Shown here in pieces: positions 21,429 through 31,941 of a DNA stretch of 64,000 nt. Within the stretch, counting starts at the first letter, position 1. The number at the start of each line of letters is the position of its first letter. Source of the DNA: Nocardia rhamnosiphila NBRC 108938 (GTDB taxonomy: Bacteria; Actinomycetota; Actinomycetes; Mycobacteriales; Mycobacteriaceae). A program made the position numbers and the translations under genes. The notes beneath the pieces were generated by a model, which saw only the letters and a list, made by a program, of their open reading frames with translations, did no database searches and was not told where the DNA came from. The stretch covers positions 682,001 to 746,000 of the forward strand of contig NZ_JOAJ01000003.1 in assembly GCF_000720425.1 (NCBI RefSeq). Reading direction: 5' to 3'.

Positions 21429-21435
21429 ACTTGGC

Positions 21436-21523
21436 GGAGCGTCCCCGGAGCGTCCCCGGAGCGTCCCCGGAGCGTCCCCGGAGCGTCCCCGGAGCGTCCC
21501 CGGAGCGTCCCCGGAGCGTCCCC
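21436..21523. repeat. 11-bp tandem repeat, eight perfect copies
   Basis: GGAGCGTCCCC is repeated eight times without a mismatch, plus a partial ninth unit (GGAGC), from 30 to 117 bp upstream of the PadR start and 70 bp beyond the gatB stop. A unit of 11 bp is one helical turn, so every copy faces the same side. This is a VNTR-type minisatellite likely to vary in copy number between strains. Confidence 0.95.
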
Positions 21524-21537
21524 GGAGCCACAACACG

Positions 21538-26805: not shown

Positions 26806-29258
26806 TCAGTAGAGGTAGACGACGGCGTTGTTCCCGCCCCGGCAGGTGACCACACCGTCCGCGGCGACGCATTCCAGCGTGTAGGCCTGACCGGTCACCG
26901 GACTGGTGGCCTCGACGGAGACCGGATCGCCTTCGGCCGAGACGACGGTGGGATCGAGGTAGGCCTGCCGGACCGCCTCGGCGAATTCGCAACTGGTCAC
27001 CGCGGTACCGGTTGCCGCCGAACCGTATTCGGAGCCGCCCGGTGCCGACCCCGAACAGGGCTGCGCACCCGTCGGCAGATCGGGCCGGCGCGTGGTGGTG
27101 GTCGCCGACGTGGTGGTGGTGGTGGTGCTTGTGCGCGCGGACGTGGTGGTGGAGGGTTCGGCGCTGTTACCGGCCGCGGAGGTCTGTTCGGGCGCCGAGG
27201 TGATGGCGGCGCCGGTCGTATCGGCGGCGCCGGTGGATTCCGGGCCGCCGGAGCCGCCGAGGAATTGGATACCGAGTACTGCGAGGATGACCACCACCGC
27301 GAACACCCCGACACCGGTCAGTATCGGAACGACCTTGGATCGTCCGCCGCCGGGAGCGGTATCGCGTACCTGCGCGTTCGCGGCGTAACTGTCGCGATAG
27401 CCGGCCTCGTAGGCGGCCGCGTAGGGGTCGGCCGGGGGTGGGCCGGGATCGTCGGCCCGGTAGCCGTAGTTGTCGTCCGGCGCCGGGGCGTCGTAGCGGC
27501 CGGTCGGTTCGGACGGCGGGTACTGCGGCCGGTAGGCGCGGCCCGCCTCCTCGGCGGAGTAAGCAGCCCCGACTGATCCACCGGCTGATAGGCCCCGGCC
27601 GCCTCCTCGGCGGAGTAAGCGAGTCCCGCGGGCGCCTCGTCCACCGGCTGATAGGCCCGGGTCGCCTCCTCGGCGGAATAGGCGAACCCCGAGGAAGCCT
27701 GATCCACCGGCTGATAGGCCCGGGTCGCCTCCTCGGCGGAATAGGCGAACCCCGAGGAAGCCTGATCCACCGGCTGATAGGCGCGAGTCGCCTCCTCGGC
27801 GGAATAGGCGAACCCCGAGGAAGCCTGATCCACCGGCTGATAGGCGCGAGTCGCCTCCTCGGCGGAATAGGCGAGCCCCGAGGAAGCCTGATCCACCGGC
27901 CGGTAGGCGCGCGTCGCGTCCTCGGCGGAGTAGGGCGCGGGCGCCTCGTCCACCGGTTGGAAGACACGGGTGGTCTCCTCGGCCCCCGGGAGCGGATAGC
28001 CGGGTTCGCCGTAGACGCGGGTCGCCTGGTCGTGCGGGTAGAAGTCCGCCACCGGCATACCCCCGGTCGCGGGCGCCGGATCCTCGTACTGTGACGGATC
28101 GGCGGCCGGATGCAACTGCTCGTTTTGGTAGAGGTGCGCGTCCGGGAACGGCCGGATACCGCCGGCCGGGGCCTCGGGGTCGTCGGCGGGGTCGTCGGCC
28201 GGTAGCGGCGTGAATTCGGTTTCGGTAGGCCGGAACGAGGTCGGGTCGCCGGGGATGATCGCGGGCAGTGTGGTGGCCGGGTCCGGCGCTCCCTCGTCAC
28301 GCGGCATCCGGACCACCAGGGTGGGAATGCCACCGGTCGGTGGCGCGGACGGACTCGGCACATCGGGGGTAGCGGGAGATTCGCCAGGCAGCGGCTCCGG
28401 CCCGGCCGGATACGGGGCGCGCGCCGGGGAATTCAGCGCGGTACGGGCAGCTACAGCTAGTTCACCTGCGGTAGCGAAACGCTCGTTCGGGTCCTTGGCC
28501 ATACCCCATGCGATCACATCATCGAGACCGGCCGGTAATCCGGTTCGCTGCACGCTTGCTCGTGGGGGCGGGTCGGTGAGATGCGAGCGGATCAACACGC
28601 CCACACTGGTCGTCGGGAACGGCGTCGCCCCGGTCAGGCATTCGTGCAGCACACAGGCGAGGGAATAGATATCGGCACGCGCGGTCACCGGGCCGCTGTC
28701 GAACCGCTCCGGCGCCATATAGGTATAGGAACCGATCGCCACACCCGCCTGGGTCACCCCGGTATCGCTCTCGTGGCGGGCGATTCCGAAATCGGCCAGA
28801 TAGGCGAAGTCGGCCGGGGTGACGAGAATATTCGCCGGTTTCACATCACGGTGCACCAGGCCGCCCTCGTGCGCGGCGTCCAGCGCGGCGGCGATCTGCT
28901 CGATCACACTCACCGCCCGCTGCGGGCTCAGCGGCCCCTCGGCCTGCAACAGCGTCCGCAGGTCGGTGCCCTGCACGAGTCGCATATCGATGAACAGGCG
29001 GCCGTCGATAACACCCCAGTCGTGGATCGGGATGATGTGCGGTTCGGCGAGGCGGGCCGCGGCCTGCGATTCCCGGCGGAACCGGATCTGGTATTCGGGG
29101 TCGCCGGCGAGCGCGTCGGAGAGCAGCTTGAGCGCGACGACCCGCTCCTTCACGGTGTCGTAGGCCTCGTAGACCTCGCCCATTCCGCCTTTACCCAGCA
29201 ATGAGCGCAGCTCGTAGGGACCGAACCACCGACCGACTTCGGAGCCAGGCGCCTGCAC
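26806..29258 (-). CDS. transmembrane Ser/Thr protein kinase, PknD/PknE-like, interrupted by a frameshift
   Basis: The kinase domain (residues 13-275) has GKGGMGEVY at 22-30, the ATP-site Lys 44, HRDVKPANIL at 136-145, DFG at 156-158 and APE in YMAPERF, all intact. A Pro-rich juxtamembrane linker with 21-residue tandem repeats follows. In the CCCC run at 27567-27570 one base is missing relative to the repeat consensus. Upstream of it the frame ends prematurely at 27318; in the next frame the linker resumes (AAYSAEEAGRAY), then a membrane span (VGVFAVVVILAVLGIQFLGG), a Thr/Ser stretch and a Cys-containing external domain to 26806. Start GTG 29258 has AGAGGA upstream. Either a true frameshift mutation or a homopolymer sequence error. 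Confidence 0.85.
27575..27960 (-). repeat. 63-bp in-frame tandem repeats in kinase linker
   Basis: About six units of 63 bp encode 21-residue repeats of the form YSAEEATRAYQPVDQASSGFA. The four central units are nearly identical. Unit spacing is exactly 63 bp from 27578 onward; the last unit (27545-27600) is 7 bp short, where the frame is lost. The repeats should be prone to slipped-strand length change. Confidence 0.9.
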
Positions 29259-29322
29259 CCGTCCATCCTCTCCACACGCGGGCACCATCTCAACCGACCG
29301 CGGATCGCACCCGGGCTGCCCG

Positions 29323-30015
29323 TCAGACCCTGGATTGTCCAGGGGAGACCACACCGTGGTCAAACGCGTAGACGATGGCCGCCGCGCGGTCACGCACGCC
29401 CAGCTTCCCGAAGATATGACCCACATGGGATTTCACGGTCACCTCGGAGATTCCGAGCGCGTGGGCGATTTCACTGTTGGCCCGGCCGCGGCCGATCAGG
29501 GCCAGGACCTCGCGTTCCCGGGAGGTCAGCTCGACGGCCACGGCGGACGAGGCGGGGGCGGCGGCGGTACTGCGGTAGGCGGACAACACCCGCCCGGTGA
29601 CGGCGGGGTCGAGCCAGGCGCCGCCGGCGGCGACGGTGCGGACGGCGCGGATCAGGTCCTCGGCGGGGGAATCCTTGAGCAGGAACCCGGCCGCGCCCGC
29701 ACGCAGGGCACCGGACAGCAGCTGATCGTCGTCGAAGGTGGTGAGAACGAGAACCGGGGGTTCGGGAGCGCGGGCGCGCAGGATACGGGTGGCCTCGATA
29801 CCGCCGACCCGTTTCATCCGCAGATCCATCAGCACGATATCGGGGCTGTGTGCGGCGACCGCCGCGAGCACCTCGTCACCGTCGGCGCATTCGCTGATCC
29901 GGAAACCGTCGCGCCGCCGCAGAATGCGCCGCAATCCACCGCGGACGAGTTCCTGATCATCGGCGATCAGCACCTCGACCACCTGCGGCTCGGTATCGGC
30001 CGACCTGGTCAACAT
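29323..30015 (-). CDS. NarL/LuxR-family response regulator
   Basis: This 230-residue protein has a receiver domain with acidic pair D19/D20, phosphoacceptor D64 (IVLMDLRM) and K114 (FLLKDS), and a C-terminal LuxR HTH at about 165-225 (LTSREREVLALIGRGRANSEIA, in part). Its ATG 30015 overlaps the stop of a tiny ORF (ATGTTGA), so its translation is coupled to that ORF, and its GGGAGGA ribosome site lies inside it. The cognate sensor is the histidine kinase gene upstream on the same strand. Targets unknown; the gene ends 64 bp before the Ser/Thr kinase start. Confidence 0.92.
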   Translation of the reverse strand: MLTRSADTEPQVVEVLIADDQELVRGGLRRILRRRDGFRISECADGDEVLAAVAAHSPDIVLMDLRMKRVGGIEATRILRARAPEPPVLVLTTFDDDQLLSGALRAGAAGFLLKDSPAEDLIRAVRTVAAGGAWLDPAVTGRVLSAYRSTAAAPASSAVAVELTSREREVLALIGRGRANSEIAHALGISEVTVKSHVGHIFGKLGVRDRAAAIVYAFDHGVVSPGQSRV

Positions 30016-30080
30016 TCCTCCCTCGGCGCAGGTTCATGCGGTCCGCGGACGCCACAGCGAAGGCGGAGGTATCGCCTCAC
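30009..30080 (-). CDS. tiny ORF B, second of a tandem pair before response regulator
   Basis: A 23-codon ORF starts at GTG 30080 after GGAGGAACT and encodes MRRYLRLRCG, VRG, then PHEP and a tail ending REEC. It overlaps tiny ORF A by GTGA and the response regulator by ATGTTGA. Relative to ORF A it has four synonymous third-position changes (CTT/CTC, TGC/TGT, GGT/GGC, CAC/CAT) and one in-frame 9-bp insertion, a pattern of selection on peptide sequence. The GAG GAA codons double as the ribosome site of the regulator. No family recognised. Confidence 0.65.
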   Translation of the reverse strand: MRRYLRLRCGVRGPHEPAPREEC

Positions 30081-30139
30081 AGTTCCTCCTTTTGAACAGG
30101 TTCGTGCGGACCGCAGCGAAGGCGAAGGTATCGCCTCAT
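30077..30139 (-). CDS. tiny ORF A, first of a tandem pair before response regulator
   Basis: A 20-codon ORF starts at ATG 30139 with GGGAGG 4 nt upstream and encodes MRRYLRLRCG, then PHEP and a tail KEEL. Its AAG GAG GAA codons form the ribosome site for ORF B, whose GTG overlaps its stop. It follows the histidine kinase stop by 132 bp. The first ten residues are identical in A and B. Basic and Cys-containing; could be a leader, a coupling device or a bioactive micropeptide. Function unknown. Confidence 0.65.
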   Translation of the reverse strand: MRRYLRLRCGPHEPVQKEEL

Positions 30140-30271
30140 CGTGCCTCCCATGGGTTCGCGGTCGCCGCCGGCGGTGGATCCGCACTCGGCCGGCCGGCCG
30201 GTCGTCGTCGGTGCCGGGCCGCCGGACCCACGCGCCGGGCCGCGCGCGGTCGCCCTGACCGGCGCAGCCTC

Positions 30272-31750
30272 TCATGCCGGACGCGGTTCGTCGCCGCGGC
30301 CGGGACCCGGGTCGTGGTCGGCGATGATCTCCGAAATCGGACAGCGCAGCCGGTCCCGGCTCGGGGCCGCGGCGCTCGCGGGACGCTCGTCCAGCGGGAA
30401 CTCCGCGCGTACGAGCCACCCGCCGGCCTCCGGACCGACCCTGATGCGACCGCCCAGCCCGTCGGACCGGTGCCGCATGCCGGCGACCCCGGTCCCCCGG
30501 CCGAGCTGTGGAGGCAGGCCGCGGGGGATCGTATTGTGCACGCGCACGACGGCCGAGCGGCCGTCCACGGCCACCTTCAGCTCGACGTCCGCGCCCGGGG
30601 CGTGTTTGGCGATATTGGCCAGCGATTCCTGACAGATTCGATAGAGCGCCAGCCCGACCGCCGCCGACACCCCGGATAGATCGCCGGTGAAACGCCGGTT
30701 CACCGTGAGGCCGGCGTTGACGAAGTCGTCGACGAGGGCGGGGATATCACCGGCGCCGGGTTCGACCCCGGCCGCCGAGGGCACCGAATCCAGCAGGCCG
30801 ACCGTGCGCCGGATATCGGCCATGGCCTGGCGGCCCAGTCGTTCGGCGTCGACGAGGGCGTCGGCCGCCTCGTCCACATCGCGATCGGAGGTCAGTGCGT
30901 GCCGGGCGGCCGTCACGTGCAGCAGGGTCACGGTGAGCGAATGGGCGATGACATCGTGTACTTCGCGCGCGATCCGGTTGCGTTCGGCGGCCGCGGCCTG
31001 CGCGGCGCGCGCGCTCTGGTTCTCCCGTTCCTGGTACAGGAACAGGCGCTGATACTGCAGCATCACCCCCACCAGCCAGCCGAGCAGGATCCCGAGCGCA
31101 TACATGGGGAAGCCGGTACGCAGCGAGTAGTTGCCCCACACTGCCTCCCCGATGAAGGCGAACGCGAGCAGTTCGGCCGCGGCGACCACCGCCAGCAGGA
31201 CACTCAGCCGCTTCGGGGCGATCGCCGCGATCTCGGCGATACCGACCATCAGCACGAAGGGCGCGAAATCGGAGTCCACCGGCTGGACGAAGAACAGCGC
31301 CGCCGCGATCATCGTGGCGGCGAACAGGGGCAGCGGCCGCGGCACGATCCCGAACAGCACGTAGATCGGGCCGGAGGCGAACAACAGCACCAGCGCGATC
31401 ACCGGCAGTGCGGTGGGGAAGTATTCGTGCCGCTGCAGGCAGGCCACCACGCCGATGACGAAGAACGCCAGATCGGTGAACAGCACGACCTTGGGCGGAT
31501 AGTCGAAGGGCAGTTCGCGCAGCGGGTGCGGGGCCCCGGGGAGCAGTTTCGCCAGCAGAGCGTCCAGCCGGCGGCGGCCGCGGGCCCACCGTCCGGGCCT
31601 TACCGCCGCTTCCGCTTCCTCCGGGGCCCGGTCCGTCGTCGTGACCGGCGGTTCCGGGGCGTCCGGATCGGATCCGCCCATGGCGCCACCGCCCACCGGC
31701 CGCGCACGGTCCCCCGCGGCGGCAACCGGTGTGAGGCGGCTCTCACTCAT
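30272..31750 (-). CDS. two-component sensor histidine kinase, NarL-system type (HisKA_3)
   Basis: The 492-residue protein has a Pro/Ala-rich cytoplasmic N-terminus, then about six membrane spans between residues 90 and 235 without a periplasmic domain, a coiled linker with RENQSARAAQAAAAERNRIA, the HisKA_3 phosphoacceptor His in REVHDVIAHSL, and a HATPase domain (ESLANIAKHAPG, GRGTGVAGMRHR). This fits intramembrane-sensing kinases. ATG 31750 was taken as start; an upstream in-frame start at 31786 is possible. Operon order: kinase, two tiny ORFs, response regulator. Confidence 0.9.
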   Translation of the reverse strand: MSESRLTPVAAAGDRARPVGGGAMGGSDPDAPEPPVTTTDRAPEEAEAAVRPGRWARGRRRLDALLAKLLPGAPHPLRELPFDYPPKVVLFTDLAFFVIGVVACLQRHEYFPTALPVIALVLLFASGPIYVLFGIVPRPLPLFAATMIAAALFFVQPVDSDFAPFVLMVGIAEIAAIAPKRLSVLLAVVAAAELLAFAFIGEAVWGNYSLRTGFPMYALGILLGWLVGVMLQYQRLFLYQERENQSARAAQAAAAERNRIAREVHDVIAHSLTVTLLHVTAARHALTSDRDVDEAADALVDAERLGRQAMADIRRTVGLLDSVPSAAGVEPGAGDIPALVDDFVNAGLTVNRRFTGDLSGVSAAVGLALYRICQESLANIAKHAPGADVELKVAVDGRSAVVRVHNTIPRGLPPQLGRGTGVAGMRHRSDGLGGRIRVGPEAGGWLVRAEFPLDERPASAAAPSRDRLRCPISEIIADHDPGPGRGDEPRPA

Positions 31751-31941
31751 CTGTCCAGGGTAAGCACCCCCGGGGCCGCTCGGCATCCTGCTACGGCCGG
31801 TTCCCGGCTCCGACCACGGTAGGACAGCGATTCACATCCACGGCACGACGATTTACCGGCGCCGGATTCCTAACGTGGAACACGAGGTCGCCGTACCACC
31901 GGGCCGGCGAAACCCGGCCCCCGACCGAAAGGGCTCGGATC

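Follow-up and report, generated by a model that had tools for sequence, protein, structure and literature searches.

Introduction

MIRUs insert into DTGA sites. The passages on MIRUs considered here, in a 2025 review citing Supply et al. (PMC12548453) and in a paper dealing with senX3-regX3 (PMC4213456), concern mycobacteria only. According to the former, MIRUs appear to be mobile, to enter at start codons and to couple their own ORF to the gene at a spacing of -4 nt; according to the latter, MIRUs of 77 and 53 bp, variable among strains, lie between the kinase and the regulator of senX3-regX3, and the region that they occupy is stated to have promoter activity.

The two micro-ORFs analyzed in this work are located between a histidine kinase and a response regulator gene in a 64-kb stretch of Nocardia DNA (hereinafter, the window). 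Like the MIRUs of those passages, the Nocardia units are short, dispersed and placed at start codons, with an internal ORF that appears to be coupled at -4 nt (PMC12548453), and they form tandem arrays between a kinase and a regulator (PMC4213456); moreover, 77 + 4 and 53 + 4 bp in the MIRUs, as 68 + 4 and 59 + 4 bp in Nocardia, amount to whole codons. The genus and the unit length differ, and the likeness would be one of architecture rather than of compared sequence. Single features are shared with REP/RAYT and other Y1-mobilised repeats (non-autonomous, short, and dispersed) and with regulatory leader ORFs (a short ORF directly ahead of a gene). Among the open-access papers listed, judged by their titles and the openings of their abstracts, none was found on such repeats in Nocardia.

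We consider it very probable, on the basis of the comparisons reported below, that the micro-ORFs form an array of two units of an interspersed repeat, non-autonomous and MIRU-like, which is seated at a start codon and couples translation. Classed by its architecture, this repeat probably constitutes a new family of mobile, translation-coupled repeats in Nocardia that resembles the MIRUs.

Organization of the Kinase-Regulator Junction

The features of the junction, given in window coordinates, are the following:

29323..30012, (-) strand: response regulator (Response_reg and GerE/LuxR domains), with its start taken as TTG 30012
30009..30080, (-) strand: repeat unit B / ORF B, a 68-bp unit plus the TTGA overlap; 23 codons, GTG start, TGA stop within TTGA
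30013..30139, (-) strand: whole insert of 127 bp (59 + 68), absent here in the related genomes G003, G004 and G014
30017..30022, (-) strand: GGGAGG, predicted ribosome site for the regulator, within ORF B (read from the sequence)
30077..30139, (-) strand: repeat unit A / ORF A, a 59-bp unit plus the next overlap; 20 codons, ATG start, TGA stop within GTGA
30084..30090, (-) strand: AGGAGGA, predicted ribosome site for ORF B, within ORF A (read from the sequence)
30144..30149, (-) strand: GGGAGG, now ahead of ORF A; in G003 and G014, the same motif immediately precedes the start of the regulator
30272..31753, (-) strand: histidine kinase (HisKA_3, with HATPase_c under its curated cut-off), from a domain search; the start at 31753 was chosen, the open-reading-frame list having 31786

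The original prediction, made from this stretch of DNA, had placed two ORFs of 20 and 23 codons between the kinase and the regulator and had them overlapping each other by GTGA; both statements were borne out. ORF A (20 codons plus the stop) encodes the peptide MRRYLRLRCGPHEPVQKEEL, and ORF B (23 codons plus the stop) the peptide MRRYLRLRCGVRGPHEPAPREEC, with GTG taken as M. Unit A, at 59 bp, lacks 9 of the usual 68 bp (a 9-bp deletion), and together with the overlap it measures 63 bp, that is, 21 codons including the stop. The four synonymous third-base changes predicted between the two copies (CTT/CTC, TGC/TGT, GGT/GGC, and CAC/CAT) and the 9-bp in-frame indel are recognizable by eye; the copies are also unlike in the start codon and in several codons of the tail.

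Other statements held only in part. An overlap between ORF B and the regulator does exist, but instead of ATGTTGA, with an ATG at 30015, it is rather TTGA, with the regulator starting from the TTG at 30012. We prefer this start because of the register of the repeat family and of the relatives, and because the TTG lies 4 nt behind GGAGG, whereas the ATG at 30015 lies only 1 nt behind it; in N. jinanensis, the same TTGACCAGG regulator start directly follows the array. Similarly, the proposed relay of translation is retained as a relay-like architecture, as far as it can be read from the stop-start overlaps and from the putative ribosome sites that each ORF carries for the next one, but it would not include the kinase, since the kinase stop (30272) is located 132 nt ahead of ORF A, with no overlap, and the putative ribosome site of ORF A (GGGAGG at 30144..30149) was probably the former ribosome site of the regulator. 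That the second two-component system (34-36 kb) lacks the units was confirmed by a profile search of the 64-kb window, which matched these two units only.

A Dispersed Repeat Found in Part of the Genus

The two micro-ORFs are two units of a dispersed repeat of about 68 bp, which is not peculiar to the kinase-regulator operon and is far beyond chance. A 26-base core was found at 30 places in the genome harboring the window with up to three mismatches, while the reversed control gave 0. With a shorter core, matched in 12 of 60 genomes (this one included), the places were 44 in this genome, 25 in G015 and 13 in G030. The 29 stretches fetched around core places, together with the window, yielded 65 hits with a profile built from 21 gapless units, of which the three weakest were dropped, leaving the 62 above 13 bits. 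A sequence-only model of 29 units gave at least 73 matches in the same genome at E<=0.001 (the best 150 of 13757 candidates being scored), some of them falling outside the stretches analyzed.

As regards the range of the family, a longer core was present in 17 of 150 genomes of the genus, again with this one included, in 1 to 65 copies each. The carriers in the exact-pattern scan belonged without exception to Nocardia (N. fusca, N. jinanensis, N. carnea, N. flavorosea, N. testacea, and one MAG). For the numbered genomes the genus is likewise taken to be Nocardia, as the places in G103 correspond to those found on N. fusca contigs. In an even sample of 397 genomes from the order, the matches outside the genus were all single hits of 21.8-23.5 bits; since the best 12 candidates per genome were scored, weak copies could have been missed there. 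A 101-genome search gave no strong match outside the genus either. The repeat had no match in the plasmid and phage collections, which rules against its carriage by a plasmid or a phage, and the peptides of the micro-ORFs had none in NCBIfam.

Unit Structure and Seating at Gene Starts

The repeat is dispersed, is seated at start codons and stop-start overlaps, varies in unit number among species, and preserves the geometry of a ribosome site plus a start. Its layout consists of DTGA, followed by GGCGATACC... or TGCGATACC..., then by ...CTCCGCGGACCGCAT..., a ribosome site, usually four bases, and a further DTGA. The usual length is 68 bp, which corresponds, with the 4-bp overlap, to 24 codons; as the unit length leaves a remainder of 2 when divided by 3, length plus overlap gives whole codons and the units are stackable. 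A typical unit would have a start codon within DTGA and a short in-frame ORF, with a ribosome site close to the end and a closing DTGA, in which the TGA would stop the ORF of the unit and the D-T-G would start the next one. In 34 of the 62 units a frame ends at the right DTGA, and 26 of these also have an ATG, GTG or TTG start.

The seats of the arrays were compared with control positions located 20-400 nt further on. At the right end, 24 of the 33 arrays of this genome have a DTGA no more than 3 nt from where it is expected, with the remaining nine lacking one within that distance; 22 of the 24 open an ORF of at least 120 codons (control, 60/1815, 3.3%), and all 24 are preceded, 2-12 nt upstream, by a ribosome-site motif. 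At the left end, a TGA is found within 3 nt in 18/33 arrays, and 16/33 close at least 120 open codons (control, 23/1815, 1.3%). The named species gave 32/53 right ends (control, 95/2915) and 18/53 left ends (control, 41/2915), when duplicates and arrays less than 420 nt from the end of a locus are omitted. Arrays contain from one to five units in the loci of this genome and from one to eight in the named species.

Pfam (E<=1e-8) matched 15 of the 16 downstream proteins tested. The genes behind the units encode dehydrogenases (including an aldehyde dehydrogenase), thiolases, a CoA-transferase, a pantoate ligase, a NUDIX protein, a P450, parts of ABC transporters, and others. A subfamily occurs at three loci (L048, L059, and L060), where only the first 37 or so positions of the unit are conserved, with GGCCCGGAGGCGGTAGT or a near variant ahead of them and a different 3' half.

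Empty Sites, Unit Number, and a Possible Mechanism

No unit is present at the kinase-regulator junction of G003, G004 and G014, whose regulators are 87-89% identical to the one in the window. The G003 junction runs uninterrupted from GGGAGGAACT to ATGACCAGG, where the genome analyzed here has GGGAGGCACG, the 127-bp insert, and TTGACCAGG. The regulator lies directly behind the array also in N. fusca (95% identity), which harbors three units at the junction, and in N. jinanensis (93% identity), which harbors six. The number of units is therefore two, three and six in these genomes and zero in the somewhat more distant G003, G004 and G014; directly upstream of the more distant regulator orthologs listed, no unit was seen by eye, the G015 contig ending within the gene.

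At the kinase-regulator locus of N. fusca the junctions read CTGATG, so that coupling would rest there on a TGATG overlap instead of the 4-nt DTGA one. The fifth of the N. jinanensis units measures 66 bp and has lost its stop; its ORF is fused with that of the sixth one, and the end still falls within the TTGA of the regulator, which suggests that it is the coupling, and not the peptide, that stays. In the same N. jinanensis array (L097, ~1400-1720), the kinase frame enters the first unit, and the repeat supplies the last codons of the kinase.

Two other loci offer a similar picture: L058 has a bare ATGA between two genes in G003 and G014 and two units in the genome analyzed, and L044 is empty in G005. 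The empty sites at these three loci put the insertion at the start codon. Among the ortholog rows, which were counted by hand and include some places fetched twice, 17 of 61 have DTGA-DTGA spacings corresponding exactly to zero, one, two or three units of 68 bp (-4, 64, 132, and 200 bp), and 44 do not.

Empty and full sites carry, by themselves, no direction of change, and we infer that the difference reflects gain by insertion rather than loss. Ribosomes entering at the former site of the gene would translate the micro-ORFs in turn and re-initiate on the regulator; given such re-initiation from unit to unit, the insertion would be tolerated and roughly neutral for the expression of the regulator. 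Tandem growth would then probably occur by slippage or by recombination between units.

As far as the mobilising function is concerned, a Y1 transposase (PF01797) was found in 5 of 11 carrier genomes (G000, G030, G106, G003, and G014) and in 0 of 11 non-carriers, that is, in 5 of 22 overall. This is the point of contact with REP/RAYT and the other Y1-mobilised repeats, from which the Nocardia unit differs in having no covarying consensus fold and in the distribution of the transposase itself, for which four of the five genomes richest in copies (G103, G111, G147, and G148) gave no match, nor did G015. The association is suggestive but could stem from shared ancestry, and a Y1 transposase is at most a candidate mobiliser, since those four genomes gave no match.

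Unit Number as a Possible Regulatory Setting

A different possibility is that the number of units sets the ratio between regulator and kinase and is selected in each species. This idea, which is compatible with that of a coupling repeat, finds some agreement in the unit numbers observed at the junction in related species (two, three, six, or none) and in the senX3-regX3 system, where the MIRU number varies and where, according to the passage concerned, two conflicting studies had used strains with different arrays, the authors adding other reasons as well (PMC4213456). In addition, the ribosome sites of the array in the window have a predicted accessibility of 0.20, below that of shuffled sequences (0.40, sd 0.17). 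However, the unit number is also variable at many unrelated loci, and across the 24 arrays whose expected right end has a TGA the predicted accessibility was no different from that of shuffles (mean z 0.0, 12/24 below). On these sequence data, selection of the unit number in each species appears unlikely. The accessibility result led us to reject the idea that a CCTCC stretch sequesters the ribosome site and so enforces coupling. The "gain-setting coupler" of the original prediction is conceivable as a side effect of the coupling repeat.

Is the Peptide under Selection?

The alternative according to which the conserved RYLRLRxGLR is a functional basic micropeptide, acting on the kinase, on the membrane or on some other target, has to be weighed against the pattern of substitutions. 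Among 116 distinct units, the Fitch steps at the first, second and third codon positions were 44/35/86 over codons 3-8 and 10-12, 97/93/126 over codons 3-15, and 76/68/70 over the spacer codons 16-19. Likewise, synonymous changes among 31 units of the genome analyzed were 62/156 in codons 3-15 (46.8 expected) and, less markedly, 132/398 in codons 2-22 (116.3 expected). A third-base excess, of the kind from which the original prediction had derived selection on the peptide, is found in codons 3-8 and 10-12. Nevertheless, it derives from few codons (mostly 5, 7 and 10, and to a lesser extent 3), and selection for translation or on a source copy could mimic it; moreover, the second position of codon 9 varies freely (C/Y/F/S), its 31 steps placing it among the fastest sites. 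Of 141 units whose right DTGA falls close to the expected end, 106 measure 68 bp; the length of the other 35 is in frame in 12 and out of frame in 23, which corresponds to the third expected under neutrality. As the units share descent, none of these counts is made up of independent cases.

A frame-changing indel at an orthologous locus had been set beforehand as evidence against such selection, and one is present in the 66-bp fifth unit of N. jinanensis, with its fused ORF. The link with two-component signalling was not supported either: copies also lie ahead of unrelated genes, and the kinase-regulator junction has no unit in G003, G004 and G014. Selection on the peptide would hence be weak at best, and we read these patterns as a constraint, past or partial, on translation as such, with no convincing peptide function. 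The micro-ORFs are probably no signalling micropeptide of the kinase-regulator operon, and we regard a functional micropeptide in general as very improbable.

It is hardly credible that the unit is a cis-acting RNA element, an attenuating leader or a regulator-binding DNA site that is open by chance: its 5' half is strongly conserved at the nucleotide level, but the consensus fold (RNAalifold, 29 units) reaches -3.5 kcal/mol with compensatory change in 0 of 7 predicted pairs, Rfam gave no match near threshold, the recurrent ends are stop-start overlaps plus ribosome sites, and the downstream genes belong to unrelated families. A conserved RNA structure was accordingly rejected, and the unit differs from regulatory leader ORFs both in its dispersal before unrelated genes and in the lack of an attenuator-like structure in the unit alignment.

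A Second Repeat Family in the Genus

Returning to the coupling repeat, a second dispersed repeat, beginning with GTGAGCGAGCGTC, is present at 14 places in G005 and two in G007, and both G007 copies lie at the orthologous kinase-regulator junction. In G005 it occurs in tandem with a period of 80 bp (80 + 4 bp giving 28 codons) and, as judged by eye, has GTGA/ATGA junctions. At L175 and L177-L182 of G005 and at L146 of G007, this repeat (GTGAGCGAGCGTCAGCGAG...) contains an ORF of 27 residues. It resembles the 68-bp unit in its GTGA/ATGA junctions and in a length of 2 mod 3, whereas its sequence and its peptide (VSERQRVNR...) are unrelated; the same genus thus shows a comparable design in a different sequence. 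A further duplication, a 69-bp tandem one starting with GTGAGACATCC, is found at the same junction in G002, just upstream of the regulator ortholog (L141). It was considered as another dispersed family and discarded, since the pattern occurs at only two places in G002 and is a local tandem duplication.

We might speculate, and do so tentatively, that self-stackable coupling repeats seated at start codons (2 mod 3, DTGA, and their own ribosome site) arose several times without shared sequence, as the 68-bp and 80-bp repeats and the MIRUs, that they recur at kinase-regulator junctions, and that the number of units acts there as a slowly evolving dial of the regulator-to-kinase ratio.

Implications and Other Repeats in the Window

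The occurrence in Nocardia of a family with the architecture of MIRUs, its empty sites and the presence of a second, unrelated family make an insertion rule testable, according to which an operon can receive an element at a start codon without being silenced, provided that the element carries a start, an ORF, a ribosome site and a stop in the right frame. From a practical viewpoint, a genome-wide search for repeats should precede any claim of a peptide function for conserved micro-ORFs next to genes, and the variation in unit number could be used to type these Nocardia species.

The window also contains repeats of other kinds. A Ser/Thr kinase gene (26806-29261) harbors 5.7 copies of a 63-bp repeat (27573-27934); at 26806-27306 a different frame contains a membrane-like segment, and the gene may be frameshifted past the 63-bp repeat. 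A perfect 11-bp tandem repeat, CGGAGCGTCCC, is present in 8.5 copies at 21435-21528.
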